Positions 24,572 to 39,613 of a stretch of 64,000 bases of DNA are shown in pieces (positions within the stretch are counted from its first letter, which is position 1; each line of letters begins with the position of its first letter). Position numbers and translations under genes: made by a program. The stretch lies in NCBI GenBank assembly GCA_019671135.1, contig JAHRHY010000013.1, positions 1,612,001 through 1,676,000 of the forward strand, given 5' to 3'. The DNA is from Linnemannia hyalina (lineage: Eukaryota > Mortierellomycota > Mortierellomycetes > Mortierellales > Mortierellaceae). A model generated the notes under the pieces. It did no database searches and was not told the DNA's origin. It saw only the letters and a list, made by a program, of their open reading frames with translations.

Positions 24572-24736
24572 CACTCAGAATTTTTTTTTGCGTACAGTTG
24601 GATAAGAAAACTGTCTTAAAAGAATTTCGAATAAATGAATTGAAATATTACTCAGTCCGAAAAATTATTCAGTCATATGACGGGGGTTTCAACCCACACA
24701 AAATGAACTAGAACGGCAGATGGACAGATGGACGCG
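24572..24736. repeat. Left terminal inverted repeat of the pogo-like element
   Basis: About 165 bp pairs with 27393-27528. The best-conserved parts are the outer 20 bases, TTACTCAG with CCGAAAAATTATTC, and ACGGGGGTTTCAACCCACAC. An extra A-rich stretch after GCGTACAGTTGG accounts for the length difference. Confidence 0.8.
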
Positions 24737-27288
24737 ATCAACATCATCATCAGCACAACGCCAAGATGTCGTCGAAACGCCCCCACCCCCTGTGAATAAA
24801 GCCAACAAAGTCTCTAAAACGAAAAAGAATAAACTGACCTCAACAAGCGGACCCTATACACCCTTACAACTCCCCTTCAACGATGACAAGAGCGCCACTT
24901 ACACCAAAGCCCAACTCGAACGCTTTTACGACCTGCGTGTCCGGAGATACGAAGATCCCCTACAATGTGCCAGAGCCAATGCCGCCCATTGCTTGCTCCT
25001 CAAGCCTGATCCCGGTGTCTATGCCATCTCAATGACAAGGACATGCTACACTCTCCGCGTCAAGCTCGAGCCCATCGACATCTTTCGCTACCTCCAGAAA
25101 CACCTCACAAAGCCTTTGGCCAAGGACCCAACCCAAATCTGAACGACAGTCTCTTACAGGAGCTTCGTAAACAACATTGGCATGAACATTCCTCACTCCA
25201 CTCTGCAATGTATCCTCCAGAATGAGGCCAAGACTCGAGCGTTGGCCGACCAGCTTCCCGTCGGTGCTAAGTACGTAATCAACCGCAAGAACAGGATGGT
25301 CGAGGAAGGTTTGTATTTATGGCTACAGGATCAACGGTCGAAGCAAGTTCCAATCAACGGAAAGATGATCATGGAGGCCGCCCAGGTGACATATACCGTT
25401 CTTGTCGACGTATACGAGAAGAGCAATACAAGAGAGGCTGTCGTTCCCTCCTTCTCCGCCTGGTGGTTTAATGCCTTTAAAAAACGATACCACATTTCGT
25501 ATAACCAGCTGCACGGGGAAGCAGCAGGTGTTGACTTGGATGCTATTGAACCTGAACTTCGCGATATCCGTGCGGTTTACGCCAACTACTCACCCGATGA
25601 TATCTACAATTGCGACGAGACTGGAGTCTATCTCAAGGAACTCGTCACAAAGTCGTATACTGTCCCCGAGGGCACAGGCGGAACCAAGCCCAACAGGAGT
25701 GCCCGAGTGTCGATTCTTTTTTGTGTCAACGCCTCTGGCTCATCCCTAATTTTGGCGGAAGACCCAAAGATGTCGGCATTGAGGCCTTTGGTTATTGGTA
25801 GATATTATTCATTTGCCTTTTATCGCTCTTGTTTTTTATGTTCTTTTTGGGAGGGTCAATATCCATGTTGTAAATTAACTTCTTAAGATTTTGCGCACGC
25901 TAGCCAAGAGCATGGCTCGAGAGGTGGAGGATGGGGCCAATGACGGAATGGAGATACGGAAGAATGGCTCAGGATGGATGAACCGCAACATTTTTACGAG
26001 TTGGTTGATAGATCTCGATCAACAGCTTGAGCGACGCACCCTTCTCCTGCTGGACTCTTGCCCTGCGCACAGTAGTATCAACGTTCCTCCAGCATTCAGA
26101 TACCGCGACAGTTGGAAGTTCCTCACAATCCAACGCCTGCCCAAGATCTCAACCTCTGTCACGCAACCACTCGACACCGGCATCATCAGCGTCTTCAAAC
26201 GCGCATTATTGGAACTCCTCAGTCAGGAAACAAGCCTTGTCCGCACCTACGACAGAAGCAAATCTATTAGCAACGGACATGCATGGTCACTTATCCCGTC
26301 CGCATGGAACAGAGTCAAGGCAACAACAGTTCGCAATTGTTTTGCGAAAACTCCTGTGCTCCCAGATGACATGCGCCAACAATTATGACAGCACCCAACA
26401 GCACCTCAGGAACAGCGGGAGAATATTAAATACTCGCGGCGTAACGATTACAAGGAGGAAGCACGGGCGTACTTTGAGCACCTAATTGCCGAGGCGAACG
26501 AAGCCTGTGACTGGCAATAGGCCTTCAAATCACACGGAACACAGGATGCACAGGATCTAGCCTATGAGTCATTGCCAGCCGAAGCTGCAGTGGAGGAGGT
26601 GCATAATGAGCAGGCCCTGCTATCTGTCTCGAGCCCGTCTTGCCCAGCGCCGTACGATACCGACGAATGGGCAAGCTCTCCTCTAGCCGACGAAGTGTAC
26701 ACACATGCCATGCGGGTCCTGAAGGAACGGATGCCAGTACTCGGTCAGATGAGCATTGGCGAACTCAAGGCAACAAGGGGGTTATTGAGCTGTGGGTCGG
26801 CAGAGGAGATCATTCTCAGCAAGGGATTGAAGGATGTTTTGCGCTTCTATGGCAAGTCTGGCCATCTGGGAGGACATGTGGAACAGTCAGAGGTACAGTC
26901 AGTCGCCCAACCATTGCTTTCAACATCCATGTACAGTAGTAGCAGCCTTAATCTCAGCCGCACTGACGCAAGGAAAACCTCATACAGCATCGACGATAGC
27001 AGCCACGAGGAAAATGTGGTGGATGGAAAGCGATGTGATCAAGGAGAGGACGAAAGCAATGAGGACGAGGGAGATGACGAGGAGGAACAGCGGATGGAGA
27101 AATCTTTGATAGAGACACAACATCGTGAGGATGGAGATGAGGAGGAAGAGGAAGAGGAAGAAGAACCGCTGCTGCGCCGTAATCGAGGAGAGATTATTGA
27201 TCCTTTTGTTGCAGAGGAAGAAGTTACTGCCGACTACAGCAACTACAGTGGCCATGCTGGCGATAAAAGCAATAGCGACAGTGACTAA
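24720..27288 (+). pseudogene. Pogo/CENP-B-type DDE transposase gene
   Basis: The coding region is in three main blocks. 24720-25140 encodes a Lys-rich N terminus. 25182 to about 25790 carries a helix-turn-helix-like NIPHSTLQCIL and the first catalytic Asp (YNCDETGVY, Asp at 25614). 25888-26388 carries the second and third Asp (LLLLDSCPAHSS at 26053, QPLDTGIISVFK at 26173). A phase-0 intron from about 25791 to 25887 with a weak GTTATT donor would join blocks two and three. The frame between blocks one and two changes near 25140-25180, so a further intron or one indel is needed. An acidic C-terminal frame (26572-27288, Glu/Asp runs) may be the tail of the same protein. All three catalytic aspartates are present, so activity could have been lost only recently. 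Confidence 0.7.
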
Positions 27289-27392
27289 GACACAGCAACA
27301 ACATCAACGACAGCAAATAACGATAACAACAATACCAGTACCAAAGAAAATAGTCATCAATGCTACAGAAATATCTATTATCTGTCCCTCAT

Positions 27393-27528
27393 GTCGCGTC
27401 CATCTGTTCATCTGCCTTTCTAGTTCATTTTGTGTGGGTTGAAACCCCCGTTATGTGACAGAATAATTTTTCGGTCTGAGTAACATTTCAATTCATTCCA
27501 ACTTTACGCAAAAAAAATATTCTGAGTG
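27393..27528. repeat. Right terminal inverted repeat of the pogo-like element
   Basis: About 136 bp is the inverse of the left end, with the shared core GTGTGGGTTGAAACCCCCGT at 27433-27452 and outer end TATTCTGAGTG. Confidence 0.8.
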
Positions 27529-29941: not shown

Positions 29942-30298
29942 TGTGTGGTTGTATTAGTGATGGTGGTAGTAGTAGTTCCTTTTTGATGGGAGGTAAAAGG
30001 CCAAGGGAAGGATAGTGATAGGGCGACAGAATAAGAAAGAAGAAGAGGGAGTGAAAGAAGAAACACTTCCTCTTCTTTTATCAAAAAGAGGAATTATCCC
30101 TTCGTTTGTCTCTCATGCAAATTTGCATGATATTTTTCATTTATCGAGGATTACAATAAAATGGGTTGAGAGACCAAACCTGCCGATCTAAAACAAACGT
30201 AGCGTGCTTTTTTAGGGTGCTGTCGTCCAGGTTGCTATCTCATAACCATCATCCCCTCCTCCCATCATATCCTAGTCTCCACTTCACAATCCTCATTC

Positions 30299-32241
30299 AT
30301 GCCCGAAACGATTTTGCCCAACCCAACTAACAACTCTAATATCGAAATCCTTGGATCCTTTGATGTCCATAAGACGCCATTTACGAATGAACCAAATGAA
30401 TTGCTGTTCTCAATATCTCGCCGCCCTCAGGAGCTGTTTAATGATGATGACATCAGTGATGATGAGCCGTCGACACAAGGAAAGGTCGAGGATGGTTGCC
30501 TATCGTCTTCCTCTTCCTCAGCGCAAACAAGGATGACTGACAAGAAGATTGACAGCAAACCATGGACTCTCCCACCGCCCCCGGACTTCAAGAATATCTT
30601 TATGCACACAAAGGAGGAGCACGCGGCACAAGCTGATGTTCCACTCGCATTTCAACTCGACGGCGAACTTTCACCTTTGACCCTTTTCACGCTCTTTTTC
30701 TCGGATTCGGTATGTTTAAAAATTGCAGTCAATACCAACGCTTATGCAGCATCAAAAGGAGCTGGAGAAGTAGAAGGGTCACGCCACTGGGAGGATACGA
30801 CCTTGGGCGACATACATATATTCCTAGACATCCTTGTCTACATGGGCATATTCCGACTACCCTGCGTTGAGGACTACTGGTCAACAAACCCAAACTAACC
30901 CCAACATTCGATCACTCACTTCATGACCCTTGTTCGCTTCCAACAGTTGAAGCGTTTCCTTCACGTCTCCCACCCAGACCTACTGGAAGAACATTAGTAC
31001 TCAAAGGTAGAGCCTCTTACCACTAAATTGGCACAGGACTTCGCTCGCTACTACATCCCATCCTCCAATGTCTCCATCGACGAGATGATTGTTCGCTTTT
31101 CAGGAAGTAGCCACACTGTCCGCGTAAAGGGCAAACCCACACCGGAAGGCTACAAGATTATCGCTCTTTGCTAAGCAGGATACACCTACTCCTTCCTCTA
31201 CACATCTCACATCAATTCTATCGTTGGCGTAGAAAAAATAAACGGACTGACTATGACCTCTTCAGTGGTTGTTCATCTCGCCAAAACACTCCCTTTTTCG
31301 ACTCGTCACTACAATATTTACATGGACAACTACTTCTCCAACATTCCCCTCTGTACTTATTTGCGCCAATTCCAAATCGGCGCTTGTGGTGCTGTCCGTG
31401 TCAACTCTGCTGGATTCCCCAAACGACTCAAGGTGCCGAAGGCCAAGAAGCTAGCATGGAACACTCTATCTGGCATTGTCCTCAATAATCAAGACCTCGC
31501 TGTCATTTGGATGGATAATGCACCCATCAGCATGCTCAGCACCATCCACAAAATCCACATGGACGATAACTTTATCGAACGTATCCGTCGCTGTCCTCGC
31601 AACACCAGTACGAACGCCACTAATTCTCGGGCAGTATTCAATGGAATCCTACAGTTCCGCTCAAAATACCGAAATTGATCGATGACTACAACAAGAATGG
31701 AGTCGACCTCAGCGATCAGTTCAGATCATACTACTGTACCCAACTAACCGTTGTCAGGACATGGATGCCCCTATTTTTTTGGATTCTCGACACCACCATT
31801 GTCAACTCTTATCGTATCTATACCGTGCTAAAGGGGACTCTTACCCACAAGGAATATCGGTTCAAATTGGCATGGGCCTTGATCGCCTCAGAAGCACTCA
31901 ACCAACACCATTCCATAATGAAAAAACACAAACGAGAGTGCGATGCGACGTCTGACAACCACCCCAGGAAGACCATGCACGTTACCAAAAACACTGAGCT
32001 ACCCCCCAGCCGTTTTGTCCCCGGTTTCCACTATGGCCAATACTCCGATACCCGAGAACTCTGTCTCCTTTGCCGCTACAGAGCCACTGTCCTCAAGGAC
32101 AAGAGCTACAAGAGTTCGACGCAGACAAACTGAGTCTGTAAGGATTGCAAGGTTCCTTTGTGCATGTCAAAAGCCCGTAACTGCTTCGAGGATTTCCATC
32201 AGAATAGCAAGAGGACAAGAAAACATATGAAGAATGAATAA
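30299..32241 (+). pseudogene. PiggyBac-like transposase (DDE_Tnp_1_7), inactive
   Basis: From ATG 30299 the frame gives an acidic N terminus, then LGDIHIFLDILVYMGI and the catalytic core with SIDEMIVRFSG (first Asp), IYMDNYFSN (second Asp) and NKNGVDLSDQF (conserved third region). A C-terminal Cys-rich finger (CLLCRYR, CKDCKVPLCM, NCFEDFH) closes it, typical of piggyBac proteins. In-frame stops lie at about 30896 (TAA), 30995 (TAG) and 31172 (TAA); there is a frame change near 31650 and another stop (TGA) at 32131. TTAA-flanked ends were looked for but not confidently placed. It is about 600 residues, the usual family size. Confidence 0.8.
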
Positions 32242-32919
32242 AGCCCTCTACTGCAACATTCGCATGAGTGTTACGCTTTTCACGCAGTTGGGTGGCTTAG
32301 ACGCGAGATTCATGTTACGGAATCAGGTGGGTTCGGTTGAGATATTGTGGAGTGGTTGTTACACTGACAGTTGAGGTTGATGTTGTGAATAAGGGAAATG
32401 TAGAAGAAGGCTGTTGAAACTGGGGGGGATCCTATGGCACGATACGCAAGCAAACAATACACACTGAAATAAACGGCGTCGGCTAACTCAATCAATTGCT
32501 TCGTGAAGTTGTCTTTTGAAAGGACATGGAGCAAAAGATCGAGCTGCCTCGCTATTTCTACTACTGCAGTATCTACTTTGGTCTAAATTACGGTGAGGTC
32601 AAGGCACTGCAAGGAATGGGCTCTCTGTAACAATGTGTAACGCGGTCGCTCACAATTATTTTGGCTCCTTGACCTTTCCACCATCCACACACCAACAAAC
32701 ACCACCCCCTACACACAAACAAACACCAACAAACAAACACCAACAAACAAATCCAAACGAAAACATACAACTAGCATACACTTCTGAACACCGACCTCCC
32801 CTTTCACCTTGGTATGACCGAGCACAAGCCTGCTTGCAGCTGTTTGCTTCTAGGTGTTGCCATTGCTAGAGGACTGATGCTAATCGCGGCTATTTTTTTC
32901 CCTACTTTTAGTCGTCATC
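32242..32919. other. Intergenic, includes ACAAACACCA simple repeat and likely 5' leader of the next gene
   Basis: No gene is recognised. An imperfect ACAAACACCA repeat occupies about 32690-32760. Between 32811 and 32912 there is a possible leader intron (GTATGACC to CTACTTTTAG) ending just before the ATG at 32920. Confidence 0.4.
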
Positions 32920-35900
32920 ATGGGTGTGGACGACCTGAGCGCCAAAATAAAGAAAACTACAGGAAAAGTCGACTCTCTCCTGGACCTCTCCTGGACAAGA
33001 CTTGTCATGTCGACCTCTTCGGATCATTCTACGCCCTCCTCAACACACGCGCATATCACACGACTGCCAAGCACGTCGCCAAAGAGGCCAGAGTGCAGGT
33101 GTCTTTTGAGGTGTCGTTCGATCCCGTGTCGTCGGACAAATCGTTGAAGCGACCTAACATCGCCCCACATCCACCCTGCAACATCACACGAGCTCGACCA
33201 GCAAAAGCACCTCATTACACCTCGTCGGACCCCGTATCTCCAGCTCAAAATAACGCAGGATCAACTACTACAGAGATCGATCTTCCATCTTCCTCGAATC
33301 CAGCAACTATGCTGATCGACACAGGGCTACAGAATACGGCACTATCCTCCGCTGGATCCAGCTCACACGACCCAAATCGATCAGGTCCGCCAGTAGCACA
33401 AGGAGGAGCTGATGGTGGCAAAGATTTGGCTCTGCCCGACACAGACCAGCCAGAGCAACCTCAGCAAGTCACGCAGGTCTCACTCGTGGAGGCAATCGAG
33501 GAATTATTACTCCAAGAGCCCAAGGAGATATACATCGACCTGGATGGCCATCCGTCAGTGACACCCCAGCAACGAGAGGACAAAGAGGTATATTTTCGTG
33601 GCCACATCCAATGCACACGAGCGTATTTGCGCGGATAGATTCAAAAATAAGGGATATGATTGAACATAATGCATGACTCATTCTTTTAATTATTTAGCAT
33701 TTTAGTACTTTGGACACATCGGGCTGGTCCTTGATAACCTCATCTCAAGCAGTTTGTCCAAGGTGCACACTATCATTCACGTCGACGGACCGCGTTCTTT
33801 GGAGAAGGAGGCCGAGCACAAGCGACGCGACGAACGTCTCCAGAAATCGCTCGACAAACTCACCCCCACCGCCACCAAGGACAAATTAGAATCCGGATTG
33901 GGACTCAAGGCAGTGTATAGGATATGCCGCTCAGCATACAGATTGCCGCCAGAGGCATTGGAACAGGTGCTGGGGGTGATGGAGAACAGTGGTTGGAGAG
34001 TATGCTGTTGTTCACACCAATCAGACCTGTGCATTGCATCGCACGTCCGTCGAGCTCCTGACAAGTCCGCCATACGTGTCGTAACCCACGATTCCGACCT
34101 TTTGGCCTATGAGGATATTCATTCCATCACCATTCCGGCTGGGATTTCAAGGGACTGGACCACATACTACAAGGACGAGCTCCTGATCAAGTTGGATCTG
34201 CCCTCCCCGGCCCATCTCGTATTCGTGTCTATTGCAACAGGAAACGATTACACCCGAGGGGTTCCCTACTACGGATAGGCGAGCAACATGGCAATTATCC
34301 GGCATTTCGACTTCGGGGTTTTGGGGGCAATGACAGGACAGGATCTGGTAGAGGGGTTTGAGAGACTGGTGGGTGACTATTTGGATGTGGTGAAGGCCAA
34401 GGCGGAGGATACTCGGAGGTCGGCAGGCCAACGACAACAACAACGGCGACAACGCCGAGCGCAACAAATTCGCCGCCAGACACCTCCACCAGATTCCAAA
34501 GCGGAACACAGGGATCAAAAGCGCATAGATCGCGCAGATATGCAGCTGGCCGTGACCGTGGCTGATTTCCAAGGTGCAATCGGGGCGTTCGTGTCCTGTC
34601 AAGAGTCTCCACAATCAACCGATGGGTCCCGACCACCTCTTGCATATGACGCCGTCCGTTCTACACTCTTGGAACTAGAAATGAGGAAGGCCAGGATCAA
34701 TTCTTCCAGAGTCAAGAGAATCGGGGTTGCCGCCGAGACAAGAGATGCCTCGCTTGTAGCCGAAAGCTTGATGGATGCGGGCGAGCCTTCAACTCTCATA
34801 GTCCCCGCAGCGAGTGCCGGTCAGCAGGGCTACTTCGACTCTGGTCGTGGCGGTAAGGCCAAGGCGAAGCGGACAAGGAAGCACAGAGGTCCCCGCAAAA
34901 ATCGAGCCAACAGGAAAAGGTTCAACAAGTGGAGGAAATCCATGTGAGTGGAAACTTGGATAACTTTTGCGTATTGGCGACCAAATTGCTTTCTGCAGGC
35001 TTTTTACTAATACTCTCAATGTTGATATTATTTCTTGTTGTTAGGTTCCGAAGAAGGACCGATCTTGCCCGCCCCTATGAACCGCATAAGGTCTTTCTTC
35101 CTGATGCCAGCCCAGTGGAAGAGGACGCGCTCCAGCATCTAACGCCATCAACACCTCGACCATTCAAACCCAAACCCGACTCCAGCAATAACAACAACGA
35201 CGGTAACGGCAACAACAAGAGCAACAAAAAGAAGCGCAAGAAGCCCTTAAAGCTACCCGCGGACAAGGAGGGGCATAAAGCTCTAAAGAAGTCATTCGGT
35301 GGCGCTTTCAAGATGTTGGTACTGACAGCTGGATCACTTTGGGGACTGTCTCCGCCGCGCAACCGATCTGACATCAGAAGAGATTTCCCGATCGTCAACA
35401 GGATCGACCGCGCCGTCTTCGCGATGAACCCCGCGAAACATGTCGTCATGAAGATGCTCGAGTTCTTATTCTACGATGTCTGTTGCCTGCGCGAAACCAA
35501 GAGGGCCGACCCCAAGACAGTCATGAGGACGACGCTATGTTCGGCGACGATGCTCTTGATCTTCTGCTTGGAAAGGACAGCGCAGGGGTCATCATTCGAA
35601 ATCTCATCTCATTCGCCCTTCGAGGATCCACATCGGCGCAGGCTGGACGGAGAGCAGAAAAGACCGAGTCTATTAGCGCATATGCTCTCGCCATTTCTAT
35701 CTTCGAGCAGTTCCGAGCTTTGCACCCATCAATCAAGGCGCTCAACCCTGACCATATACCCCTCTCGAATGTCCAGCAGGATTTGGCGCCAAAGATCTGT
35801 TTAGCGATCAAGATGCACTACCGAAAACTGCCAACAACTATAGTCAACAAGGTAATGCTCTACTAACAAGTTGCATGCGAAAGTGCGCATTGAAAGTGGA

Positions 35901-37709
35901 TAATACATAGATAAAATTATAATAACGCCAATTCATTCCTTTTTCCTTTATGAATCTAGATGAAAAAGCTTGGTTTCGAATCATCGACAATTCCCTCCTG
36001 TGATGGAGAAGAGGAGGAGGAGGAAAAGGAGGAGGAGAACGGCGATGAATTTCGGGATGTAGCGGAGGAGACCACCAATAAGTCCGACAAGATTGTCTTC
36101 GAGGCCGGTCACATCAAGACCTAGTGGGACGAGATGCTCCGACTCCCATACGACCAGAGACCGCGCTTCTGTATTAGTACGCACTTGGGTGACTCGTTTC
36201 TGGACATCAGCGAGGAAGCTCTTCTGGCGATTCTCTGGGGAGAGTCATCGGGAGATGTGGGCAGGACGACGGAAGCCAATGTGCGGAGTAGGACGGAGGC
36301 CAAGGAGGACCAGGAGTCTGACTATGGCGGGTTGATGAGGCGTCTCGTTATCGGCAAGCCGGAGGATCTGGTGAACAAGGAAGTCGGGCAGACGACATAT
36401 GGCAAAAAGACTACGACCATGCAGGAGCTCTCTACCCAGCACCCATAGATCTACGGACAAGGATCCCTTGCACGCTACACCATCCGAAGGGTTAACGTCC
36501 TGCGGGAAATACACAATCAAAATCTAACAACACCCACACAGCCAACAGCAACAACATCAACATCATCATCAACAGCGGCGCCACAGCTACCCGCGCTGCC
36601 TTCACCCACCGGCTCCATGGCGACAAACAAACGATACGCATTGAGCAACTATCTAAGAACTGATGGTCATCAGCTACAACTACTCGCGTTTGATGTGCGA
36701 CGAGGTTGGGAATCCTCTTTCTCCAAGAACAAGCTTATTCACAGGATCGAGACAGACTTCCCGACGAGACAGTCCATTGTCGATTGGTTTGGGGATGACA
36801 TGTCCTCTGTCGTTGTCGTCGGTGTGGACCCAGGAGAGAAAGTCAGCGGCACCTTTTGTGTGAAGCTCGGCGAGGATTGGGCCGTGAATCTGTTGGTCAA
36901 GAGAAGCTCTTTATACCAGCCAACGTTAGCGCATTGGAGCTGGATGCAGGACTTGAAAGGAGCCCAGCCGGCGGCGGACTCCGGGGGGGGGGGGGGGGGG
37001 GGGCACTAGATGGAGGCGTGTGGGCAGTCCAGGACGTTCGATATTGAAGGAACACTGCAGCCGACCTCGTACGAAACATGGGACAAGATGGTCGAAGCCC
37101 ACCGAAAGTACTTGTCTGCGGAACCACTGCTTCACGAGTTCTATGGACCGCGTACTGTCAAGTTCGCCAACTACGAGCACCGCTAGGCCAAGTTGTCGGA
37201 TATGGATCTTGCTGTTGCTGGTGTCATGAGGTTGGTGGAAGCGGCGGTATCAAGGATTCCCGAGGGCAAGACCCCTACCGTACTGTTTGCATGGGGAAAC
37301 GGATCGTTCCGTTCTGGCTACAACTTAACCTCGCAGCATATGACATTGCAGCGACGGCTTGCTCAGAAGGTAATAGCACAAACGGACACGGTTCAAGTGA
37401 AGCGCCAATTCAATGAGAATAAGTGCAAGTACCAATCAAATTGCTTTATTTTCTACAAACTCGTAGGCCCGCGAAAGAGGGTACTTGGTTCTGTTAGTCG
37501 ACGAGTACCTGACTTCTACAATGTGCCCCACTTGCGTTGCGGTTGGAGTGTCAACGAGATTGGCGAAACCCTCAATGCGTGTTTGCGCCTGTTTGAAGTG
37601 TCAAAGGTGGATTCATCGGGATGTGGTCGGGGCGCATAATATTGCGCTTGTTGGCGAGCAGTATGTGCGGACTCTTGGACGACCAGCGCCCCTACTACGA
37701 CCTCTATAA
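32920..37709 (+). pseudogene. Composite gene: FEN1/XPG-like nuclease N-terminal half plus Fanzor-like RuvC C-terminal half
   Basis: Five exons: 32920-33587, 33706-34943, 35045-35851, 35960-37369 and 37467-37709, with GT-AG introns in matching phases. The start MGVDDLSAKIKKTTGK is FEN1-like. FEN1 active-site positions follow in order: HVDLFGSF, IIHVDGPRSLEKEAEH, HQSDLCIA (Gln at the first acidic site), VVTHDSDLLAY and TGNDYTRGVP. After a basic, Gln/Arg-rich linker, exons 4-5 give RuvC-I VVVGVDPGEK (Asp at 36827), VDEYLTS (Glu at 37503), CPTC/CLKC ribbon and HRDVVGAHNIA (Asp at 37620). The exon 4/5 intron matches copy 1. Inactivating changes are a frame change near 32985 and another near 35500, plus five in-frame stops (34276, 36122, 36446, 37007, 37184), all TAG. 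A 21-G run lies at 36983-37003. Whether it was ever one protein needs an intact relative. Confidence 0.7.
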
Positions 37710-37770
37710 TTTCAACATCGACCATGTTGTAGAACTATCCTAACCCTTAACAGGGGAAGGGATAAACTCT

Positions 37771-38148
37771 GTTACAAAAAGATGTGGTGGCTAGACAGTG
37801 GCGGCGATGCCTTAGGTTAGCAGTCATATTCTTTAGTAGACATAGTATTAGTAGTGCGCCGAGCCCTCTTGTCTGCTCTTTGTCCTTTTACACATCACTT
37901 GGACGAGAGCAGTATTGACAAGAGTTTCGCTGGCACGCTGCAGGTAACAACCCCCTCTTTAATAATATGAATACAAGGTCCTTTTACACATCACTTGGAC
38001 GAGAGCAGTATTGACAAGAGTTTCGCTGGCACGCTGCTATTATCACTTCCTCTCCCTCCAACCTACAACCCCCTTCCCCCCTCCGTACCAATTGAGGACC
38101 TAACAGCGGTCCTACAACTCTGGCCGTCGACCCTCTCCCCTGAGTAAC
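37771..38148. mobile_element. Small GTTAC-ended repeat, copy 1 (MITE-like), with AACTCT target duplication
   Basis: The unit begins GTTACAAAAAGATGTGG and ends CCCCTGAGTAAC, giving GTTAC/GTAAC inverted ends. AACTCT flanks both sides (37765-37770 and 38149-38154). A second copy lies in inverted orientation at 47768-48089. This copy has an internal exact 60-bp duplication (37882-37941 and 37978-38037). It encodes nothing recognisable and lies about 60 bp downstream of the composite nuclease gene. Confidence 0.7.
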
Positions 38149-38621: not shown

Positions 38622-39613
38622 ATGAAGCCTCGTACGCGATCCATTAAAGAGATAGCCGTACAGCAGCTTGGACAAGGAAAATCGACCAGGGCAGTTGCAT
38701 GCAACCTTCGGATCTCTGTCTCATCGGCGATCAGGATCAGGAACGAGGAAAAGGAAAACATCCCTGAGCCCCATCCTGGCAGACCTAGGAAGATCTCAAC
38801 GAAGACGAGGACGAATCTCGCGCGCCATTTCATCTAAGGCGACTTAACATCGCTAAAGGATGGACAACGATTTATTGAATCAACCGAGGGAGAGCATGTC
38901 TACCTTACCACTATACAGAAGAATCTACTCCAGGAAGGAATGAGGGTCTACTCAGCACCAGACAAGCCGAATCTCACACGGGAACAGATCACAAAAAGGC
39001 TCAGATTCGCAGAAGAACACCATCACTGGAAGGTCGAGGACTGGAAGAACGTGATGTTCTCTTATGAGTGCATCTTCAGCCGCATTGGGTCCTTCGACAA
39101 GAAGTACTACTACCACAGACGCCAACAACAACAACACCTGCCTCACCAAGTTTGGCCGAAACAACAAGGCGGTGGAAGGAAAATAATGGCCTGGGGTTGC
39201 ATTGCACATTCTGGCGTCGGAGACCTCTGCTGGATCGAGGGCAATATGGATTCGGATGCCTATCTCAACCTTCTCCAAAGGCGTGTTCGTCAGTCCCGTG
39301 ATTGGCTAGGCATGGACAAAAAGAAATTCATATTCCAACAGGACAGTGCCCGCATATACACTGCACTCAAATCCATACACTTTTTTGCGAGGCACAGGAT
39401 CAAGGTTTTTGAGTGGCCACCTAATTCGCCCGACCTCAACCTCATCGAGAACGTTTGGTCGTACATCAAAAAGGAGCTGATCGGCAGCCAGAGGCGGCTG
39501 AGGACCAGGACAGGCTGTGGGAACGTGTAGAGGCGATCTGGAGGGAGATTCTGCCGGAGTACCTTCACAAACTGTACGAGAGCATGTCCGACCGCCTGGA
39601 GATGGTGATTTAG
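38622..39613 (+). pseudogene. Tc1/mariner transposase, inactive
   Basis: The N terminus MKPRTRSIKEIAVQQ has a helix-turn-helix and the GRPRKIS hook of Tc1 proteins. The catalytic core shows FSYE where FSDE is expected (first Asp replaced by Tyr, codon at 39063), FQQDSARIYTA (second Asp) and PPNSPDLNLIENVWS (third acidic site, DD34D/E spacing). There is a stop (TAA) at 38834 and a frame change near 39500, after which LPEYLHKLYESM continues to the TAG at 39611. The replaced Asp and breaks make it inactive. Length matches the family (about 330 residues). Confidence 0.8.

Follow-up and report, generated by a model that had tools for sequence, protein, structure and literature searches.

A transposon-borne gene of Mortierellaceae fungi predicted to encode a FEN1-like 5' nuclease fused to Fanzor1

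We found in Mortierellaceae fungi a transposon-borne gene that, judging from its sequence, almost certainly encodes a single protein in which a FEN1/EXO1/XPG-type 5' nuclease is joined by a basic linker to a Fanzor1 nuclease (REC, WED, RuvC and TNB domains). Fanzors occur in eukaryotes and are related to the nucleases of CRISPR systems. The gene was met in a 64,000-nucleotide stretch of the Linnemannia hyalina genome (C5:1612001-1676000), here called the window, and the searches covered the 51.5 Mb genome. An earlier note on the letters of the window had proposed a two-nuclease mobile gene at this place. The finding is stronger than was stated there: it is an old, recently mobile FEN1-Fanzor fusion family. 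The window holds a broken copy. Its exons were mapped with a sister copy on contig C1 (L031, family W) as the reference; two further families are called A and B. The features of the window copy are as follows.

30094..37764, + strand: whole transposon copy of 7,671 base pairs, with TTATCCC as left end and GGGATA as right end; limits common to sister copies.
30203..32133, + strand: broken PF13843 (DDE_Tnp_1_7, piggyBac-type) transposase in several frames; PF13843 matched in three pieces.
32316..32632, no strand assigned: 317-base repeat, in the window copy but not in L031; a gap in the L031 alignment.
32920..33587, + strand: exon 1, with the MG start, the first FEN1-like Asp (VDLFGSF) and a long variable insert; frame broken; from the L031 alignment.
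33706..34943, + strand: exon 2, with the FEN1-like core (HVDGPRS, HQSD, DSDL, NDYT), then the basic linker; from motifs and the L031 alignment.
35045..35851, + strand: exon 3, with the remaining linker and the start of the Fanzor core; from the L031 alignment.
35960..37369, + strand: exon 4, with the TDG motif, RuvC-I (GVDPGE) and the middle of RuvC; broken in the window; from the L031 alignment.
37467..37709, + strand: exon 5, with the alternate Glu (VDEYLTS), the TNB zinc ribbon, HRD and the stop; PF07282 at 42.0 bits.
37688..37764, + strand: candidate omega-RNA scaffold, a 3' untranslated region with the right-end hairpin TATCC..GGGATA; from a predicted fold and a lone identical 77-base piece.

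L031 and the window are 97.6-99.2% identical over three long aligned blocks, and this alignment returned the outer limits 32920 and 37709 that the note had given. The FEN1-like and Fanzor motifs are present in the window letters where they had been placed, and the frame from 35960 to 37369 is unchanged across the in-frame TAG at 36446. The damage is heavier than the note had described, with six exonic indels and four in-frame stops relative to L031; the open piece of exon 2 is 33706-34275. Since the sister copy is intact and the damage can be mapped onto the window, the structure proposed earlier is real and the window copy is evidently a dead relic. The left limit of the window element matches C1:3549865 and C4:123668, and its right limit matches L031. 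Copies related to the 317-base repeat occur at eight other places (90-99%).

We fetched 20 full loci (1 W, 11 A and 8 B), of which 19 were modelled. In L031 five exons form one gene with 1,459 uninterrupted codons, and its four GT-AG introns, in phases 0, 2, 0 and 0, bear out the single exon series with compatible phases claimed for the window. All 10 modelled family A copies are open (1,351 codons), as are three of the eight in family B (1,397-1,400 codons). Both halves thus lie in one open, intron-split frame at 14 of the 20 loci and are not always separate in intact relatives; the fusion proteins are 1,351-1,459 amino acids long. Intron places and phases are identical across the intact W, A and B copies. 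The identity of W to A, to B and to two annotated relatives is 42-43%, and A and B share 38-63% depending on the region. It is very improbable that the two halves are proteins of neighbouring genes whose joined frame is a gene-modelling accident. One-half annotated models do exist (e.g. P0012, P0022 and P0024), but against them stand the 14 open loci, the models annotated in several species that span both halves, and the phase-2 intron that precedes exon 3 inside the linker and is kept in W, A and B. Moreover, in the five intact proteins checked, of which three are B copies that hardly differ, no Met stands in exon 3 ahead of the Fanzor core. Exon 4 opens with an ATG in A and W, whereas B lacks it, so that an independent start there is not conserved. 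A single long frame running over the FEN1 and RuvC matches at some loci was also considered; it is contradicted by readable stops at L051, a divergent relative in the same genome, and was not used.

We then investigated how the two halves are arranged across the genome. The TNB query gave 81 matches, the window FEN1-like query 64 and the L051 query 84. With the window FEN1-like query alone, 58 of 64 matches have a same-strand TNB downstream, and 55 of 81 TNB matches have a FEN1-like match upstream. After merging, with L051-query rows that overlap or adjoin listed loci dropped beforehand, 60 of 80 FEN1-like loci and 60 of 81 TNB loci are paired on the same strand in a fixed order, mostly 2.8-3.4 kb apart. 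The FEN1-like half therefore does stand beside Fanzor elsewhere. Chance or a hitch-hiking neighbour was rejected as the cause of the pairing, as 60 fixed-order pairs compare with about 0.004 expected per FEN1-like match. One further FEN1-Fanzor copy (C5:1608804-1612965) contains the window start (1-965), with its TNB at 741-965 and its FEN1-like match shortly before the first base of the window.

The family extends to other fungi. A family A protein query returned five proteins, from L. hyalina, L. gamsii, L. zychae and Entomortierella parvispora; an alignment query returned seven, adding L. elongata; and a query from clade E returned 15, with further ones from Haplosporangium gracile, from several Mortierella isolates and from Podila clonocystis. 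KI688_001067 (P0001) is an annotated L. hyalina protein of the fusion family. Annotated proteins with motifs of both halves come from Linnemannia, Entomortierella, Mortierella and Podila, and six of the 15 clade E proteins (P0015, P0016, P0017, P0019, P0020 and P0023) carry FEN1 and Fanzor RuvC-I motifs in one chain. In pairwise comparisons of W, A and B, the proportion of non-synonymous differences (pN) is 0.25-0.42 and that of synonymous differences (pS) 0.68-0.95 in the FEN1 and Fanzor parts, against a pN of 0.43-0.57 in the linker; the FEN1-like core is evidently under purifying selection. The synonymous divergence (dS) is mostly saturated, so no ratio of non-synonymous to synonymous divergence (dN/dS) is claimed. 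Trees built separately for each half from 12 proteins agree on the main groups (clade E; A with P0002; B; W), and one old fusion therefore appears to fit better than repeated joining.

The FEN1-like half is divergent. Neither the window piece nor the family B piece matches an XPG model in Pfam. L051 finds yeast Rad2 (E 2.7e-5) and archaeal FEN1 (8.6e-5), and scores 17.7 bits against Pfam XPG_I, below the cut-off of 24.9. The XPG_I_2 cut-off (24.2 bits) is passed by clade E proteins P0015 and P0017 (29.0 and 29.2 bits). Relatives with both motif sets are thus found among annotated proteins, and in these two the FEN1-like half is recognized at profile level, but the window FEN1-like piece itself lacks an XPG match. 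The predicted fold of a relative is FEN1-like, with FEN1, EXO1, XPG and Rad2 filling the first 37 rows. These are DNA-acting enzymes, which speaks against a role of the 5' nuclease in trimming the 5' end of an omega-RNA precursor or of another RNA. XRN1 and XRN2, related RNA 5' exonucleases, do stand further down the fold list (XRN1 from rank 41), and the candidate omega-RNA would presumably need excision from the 3' end of a long transcript, but we regard this role as quite improbable. FEN1/XPG nucleases have seven acidic metal ligands, as in human FEN1. By motif, all seven are present in P0014 and six in W, A and B, where Gln replaces what we take to be the equivalent of E158, a metal ligand of human FEN1. 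The clade E nuclease retains the EAD motif in P0015-P0017, P0020 and P0023, where the region is present and readable by pattern or by eye.

The Fanzor half is recognized at the end of the window gene by a Cas12f1-like TNB domain (PF07282), whose 42.0 bits against a cut-off of 26.3 indicate that this match is not due to chance; P0003 and P0012 score 33.1 and 46.6 bits. According to the available part of PMC10711439, Fanzor1 is marked by DPG in RuvC-I, an alternate Glu and TDG in WED. GVDPGE or GIDPGE together with VDEYLTS is found in W, A and B, and RTDG in all five intact proteins and most relatives that reach the region (KTDG in one and KIDG in one). The Fanzor1 pattern of Bao and Jurka, D-X(125,275)-[TS][TS]XX-C4-X(5,50)-RD, as given in the part of PMC3627910 at hand, fits the five scanned intact W, A and B proteins as well as P0003 and P0004; it is not found in the other 24 scanned sequences, most of which lack one end. 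GIDLG, a TnpB-like state, occurs in RuvC-I of the clade E proteins P0012, P0015-P0017, P0019, P0020 and P0023.

We next turn to the element that carries the gene. Near-identical copies with common ends and unlike flanks, as in A and B, agree with the mobility proposed for it. The ends were examined in 21 copies (the 20 loci and the window), and both were located in 12. All 12 have TTATCCC on the left and GGGATA on the right, with 6.5-7.7 kb between the ends. The T that opens the left end is invariant and the base following GGGATA varies over 21 right ends, which would fit either a TA duplication with an obligate preceding T or an element that simply starts with T. In the piggyBac superfamily, the target duplication is TTAA. 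At most TA is duplicated in the 12 two-ended copies; the element is therefore described only as carrying a PF13843 transposase and is not filed as piggyBac. A search with joined flanks found no empty insertion site; a 93% match on C8 across the window junction is not counted.

The transposase pieces of the window match PF13843 at 1.1e-11, 4.3e-12 and 0.0071, the third below the cut-off. PF13843-related DNA is found at 32 loci including the window, once rows that match only the 317-base repeat or are further pieces of listed loci are dropped, and 28 of these 32 have a same-strand FEN1-like match downstream. FEN1 removes 5' flaps. One could therefore suppose that the 5' nuclease serves the transposase step, clearing flaps or gaps at the ends after a DDE transposase, and that the fusion joins two accessory activities. 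This is unlikely in our view: its fusion partner is Fanzor and not the transposase, and no transposase DNA was detected ahead of the 11 family A genes, yet the fusion is open in all 10 modelled copies of that family, which is the most uniform of the sets. In the family A copies L032-L041, the left part is non-coding, in the position taken by transposase DNA in other families; it has repeats of about 74 bases, and its blocks vary among copies. Over its left 2.1 kb the window element shares 83% identity with the one at C4:123668, and 99% in the first 406 bases, although the FEN1-like parts of the two elements are 37% identical. Around the window element, the right flank (37767-37914) consists of a repeat that has no fewer than 21 further matches (93-99%), followed shortly by a Tc1/mariner-like transposase (PF13358, PF01498) at 38838-39530. 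A DDE_1 transposon (PF03184, HTH_Tnp_Tc5) whose inverted ends measure about 104 bases (93%) lies at 24634-27497 and has a 79% copy on C44.

We also investigated the right end, since the note had suggested looking for a conserved non-coding RNA 3' of the Fanzor part. Stop codon and right end are 55-68 bases apart in W, A and B. A terminal hairpin, TATCC..GGGATA, is predicted in W, A, B and D (in A at 90 nucleotides only, in B at 120 only), and the 90-nucleotide fold energies give z scores against shuffles of -2.1 in A, -0.85 in B, -0.6 in W, and -2.6 and -1.5 in D. Rfam gave no match in L036. A lone 77-base piece at C1:4207363-4207439 is 100% identical to window 37688-37764, and no TNB or FEN1-like match is near it. 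This piece recalls the 'ghost' loci described for SpuFz1 in the accessible part of PMC10432273 and is a possible ghost omega-RNA locus by analogy. The predicted hairpin is shared, but its energies stand apart from shuffles in some families only; the right end is a candidate omega-RNA only.

According to the same part of PMC10432273, SpuFz1 and three other Fanzors cut DNA guided by omega-RNA, and the SpuFz1 cut leaves 5' overhangs. By analogy, intact copies of the fusion probably perform RNA-guided DNA cutting. An omega-RNA would be made from the right end of the transposon and bound by the fusion protein; it would start near the CCTCTATA motif, pass GGGATA and enter the flank, so that its last part reads flanking DNA, and in the window the guide would begin at 37765. 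The Fanzor half would cut guide-matched sites next to a short motif, perhaps TTA. The tethered 5' nuclease would then remove 5' overhangs or resect the 5' strand at the cut, which would favour copying repair from the transposon-holding DNA, and the element would be kept or copied after excision. Processing of the Fanzor cut by the 5' nuclease is plausible at a level somewhat short of even and is the step we hold least firmly. The whole chain, from fusion through guided cut and end processing to copying repair, is put forward just as tentatively. Somewhat more doubtful still, though a real possibility, is the general picture of a natural RNA-guided nuclease whose built-in 5' end-processing nuclease steers repair towards transposon copying.

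Several observations weigh against these readings. As for the gene, no start was found in the family A locus L042, which consequently has no gene model, and five of the eight modelled family B copies are broken. Twenty FEN1-like loci and 21 TNB loci are unpaired; these could have decayed, have diverged beyond the reach of the queries, or be genuine single genes. Many of the database matches (5, 7 and 15) are partial or truncated models. L. gamsii P0002 (1,321 amino acids) runs from an MGI start into the zinc ribbon and ends inside it, and E. parvispora P0003 (1,313 amino acids) likewise runs from MGI into the ribbon with the middle of its FEN1 core absent. The position of P0020 differs between the half-trees. 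In the Fanzor half, RuvC-I of clade E is DLG and not DPG; P0012, with an intact C-terminus, has NEYYTS as its alternate-Glu motif and three zinc-ribbon Cys instead of four, and fails the Bao-Jurka pattern. The structure model of this half is weak (20 sequences, mean predicted local distance difference test score 50.5), and its top fold rows tie with Cas12p. At the right end, A and B each lack the hairpin in one of their two predicted folds, and the B and W energies are no better than shuffles. None of the evidence links the 5' nuclease with cleavage by Fanzor. The Gln for the E158 equivalent occurs in all 12 window-clade sequences showing that motif, and it could mean a weakened or altered 5' nuclease in W, A and B. 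Together with the exon 1 insert of that clade, which is long and variable, the Gln would suit a FEN1-like domain that mainly holds DNA on the cut or displaced strand, with catalysis weak or lost at least there. We consider this unlikely as well, since the remaining ligands are retained in the window's clade, EAD is retained in clade E and the core is evidently under purifying selection. For end processing, the Gln nevertheless calls for caution in the window's clade, and the stronger case is that of clade E.

The fusion bears on what Fanzors contribute to the transposons that carry them. A covalent link between Fanzor and an EXO1/FEN1-like nuclease suggests that what becomes of the break is important to the element; if true, this would be a natural guided nuclease equipped with its own enzyme for end processing. 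The architecture has persisted long enough to be present in four genera (Linnemannia, Entomortierella, Mortierella and Podila). The halves can be disabled separately, making the idea about break fate testable, and the EAD and Gln clades offer a built-in comparison. In the open-access papers searched, supplements excluded, Fanzor is not co-mentioned with XPG or with Mortierell; Fanzor and FEN1 are co-mentioned in a review, once each, TnpB papers naming flap endonuclease do so once, and co-mentions of Fanzor and piggyBac exist. The available parts of PMC3627910, PMC10432273, PMC10711439 and PMC11423790 do not mention a FEN1-Fanzor fusion.

Compared with known systems, the gene resembles Fanzor1 (SpuFz1, GtFz1 and PpFz1) in its RuvC with DPG and alternate Glu, TDG in WED, zinc ribbon and RD motif, and in being transposon-borne with the 3' end of the gene close to the right end. 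It differs in length and in its N-terminal 5' nuclease: Fanzor1 proteins mostly have 600-700 amino acids, some about 800 (PMC11423790 and PMC10711439, available parts), and the extra domain of PpFz1 is, in the part of PMC11423790 at hand, a small RuvC insert that binds cyclophilin and is no nuclease. Like the SpuFz1 elements, the transposon has a constant base or bases ahead of the left repeat, T here and CA there, the latter with a CATA target-adjacent motif (PMC10432273, in part). With FEN1/EXO1/XPG (Rad2) it shares fold and catalytic motifs; unlike them it is a transposon protein and, in the window's clade, has Gln for Glu in one metal-ligand motif and the exon 1 insert. As in the piggyBac superfamily, many copies have a PF13843 transposase towards the left; the element departs from that superfamily by the absent TTAA duplication and by a family A without detectable transposase DNA. 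Finally, as in the transposase-Fanzor1 chimeras of Bao and Jurka (Mariner, IS4-type and Sola2), Fanzor1 lies beside a transposase within common ends, and a shared 5' part can go with differing Fanzor parts (here the window element and C4:123668). In those chimeras, as far as the available part of PMC3627910 describes them, accessory endonucleases are separate proteins and piggyBac comes up solely in connection with a DEDDh nuclease, whereas here the accessory nuclease and Fanzor1 are predicted to be one protein.

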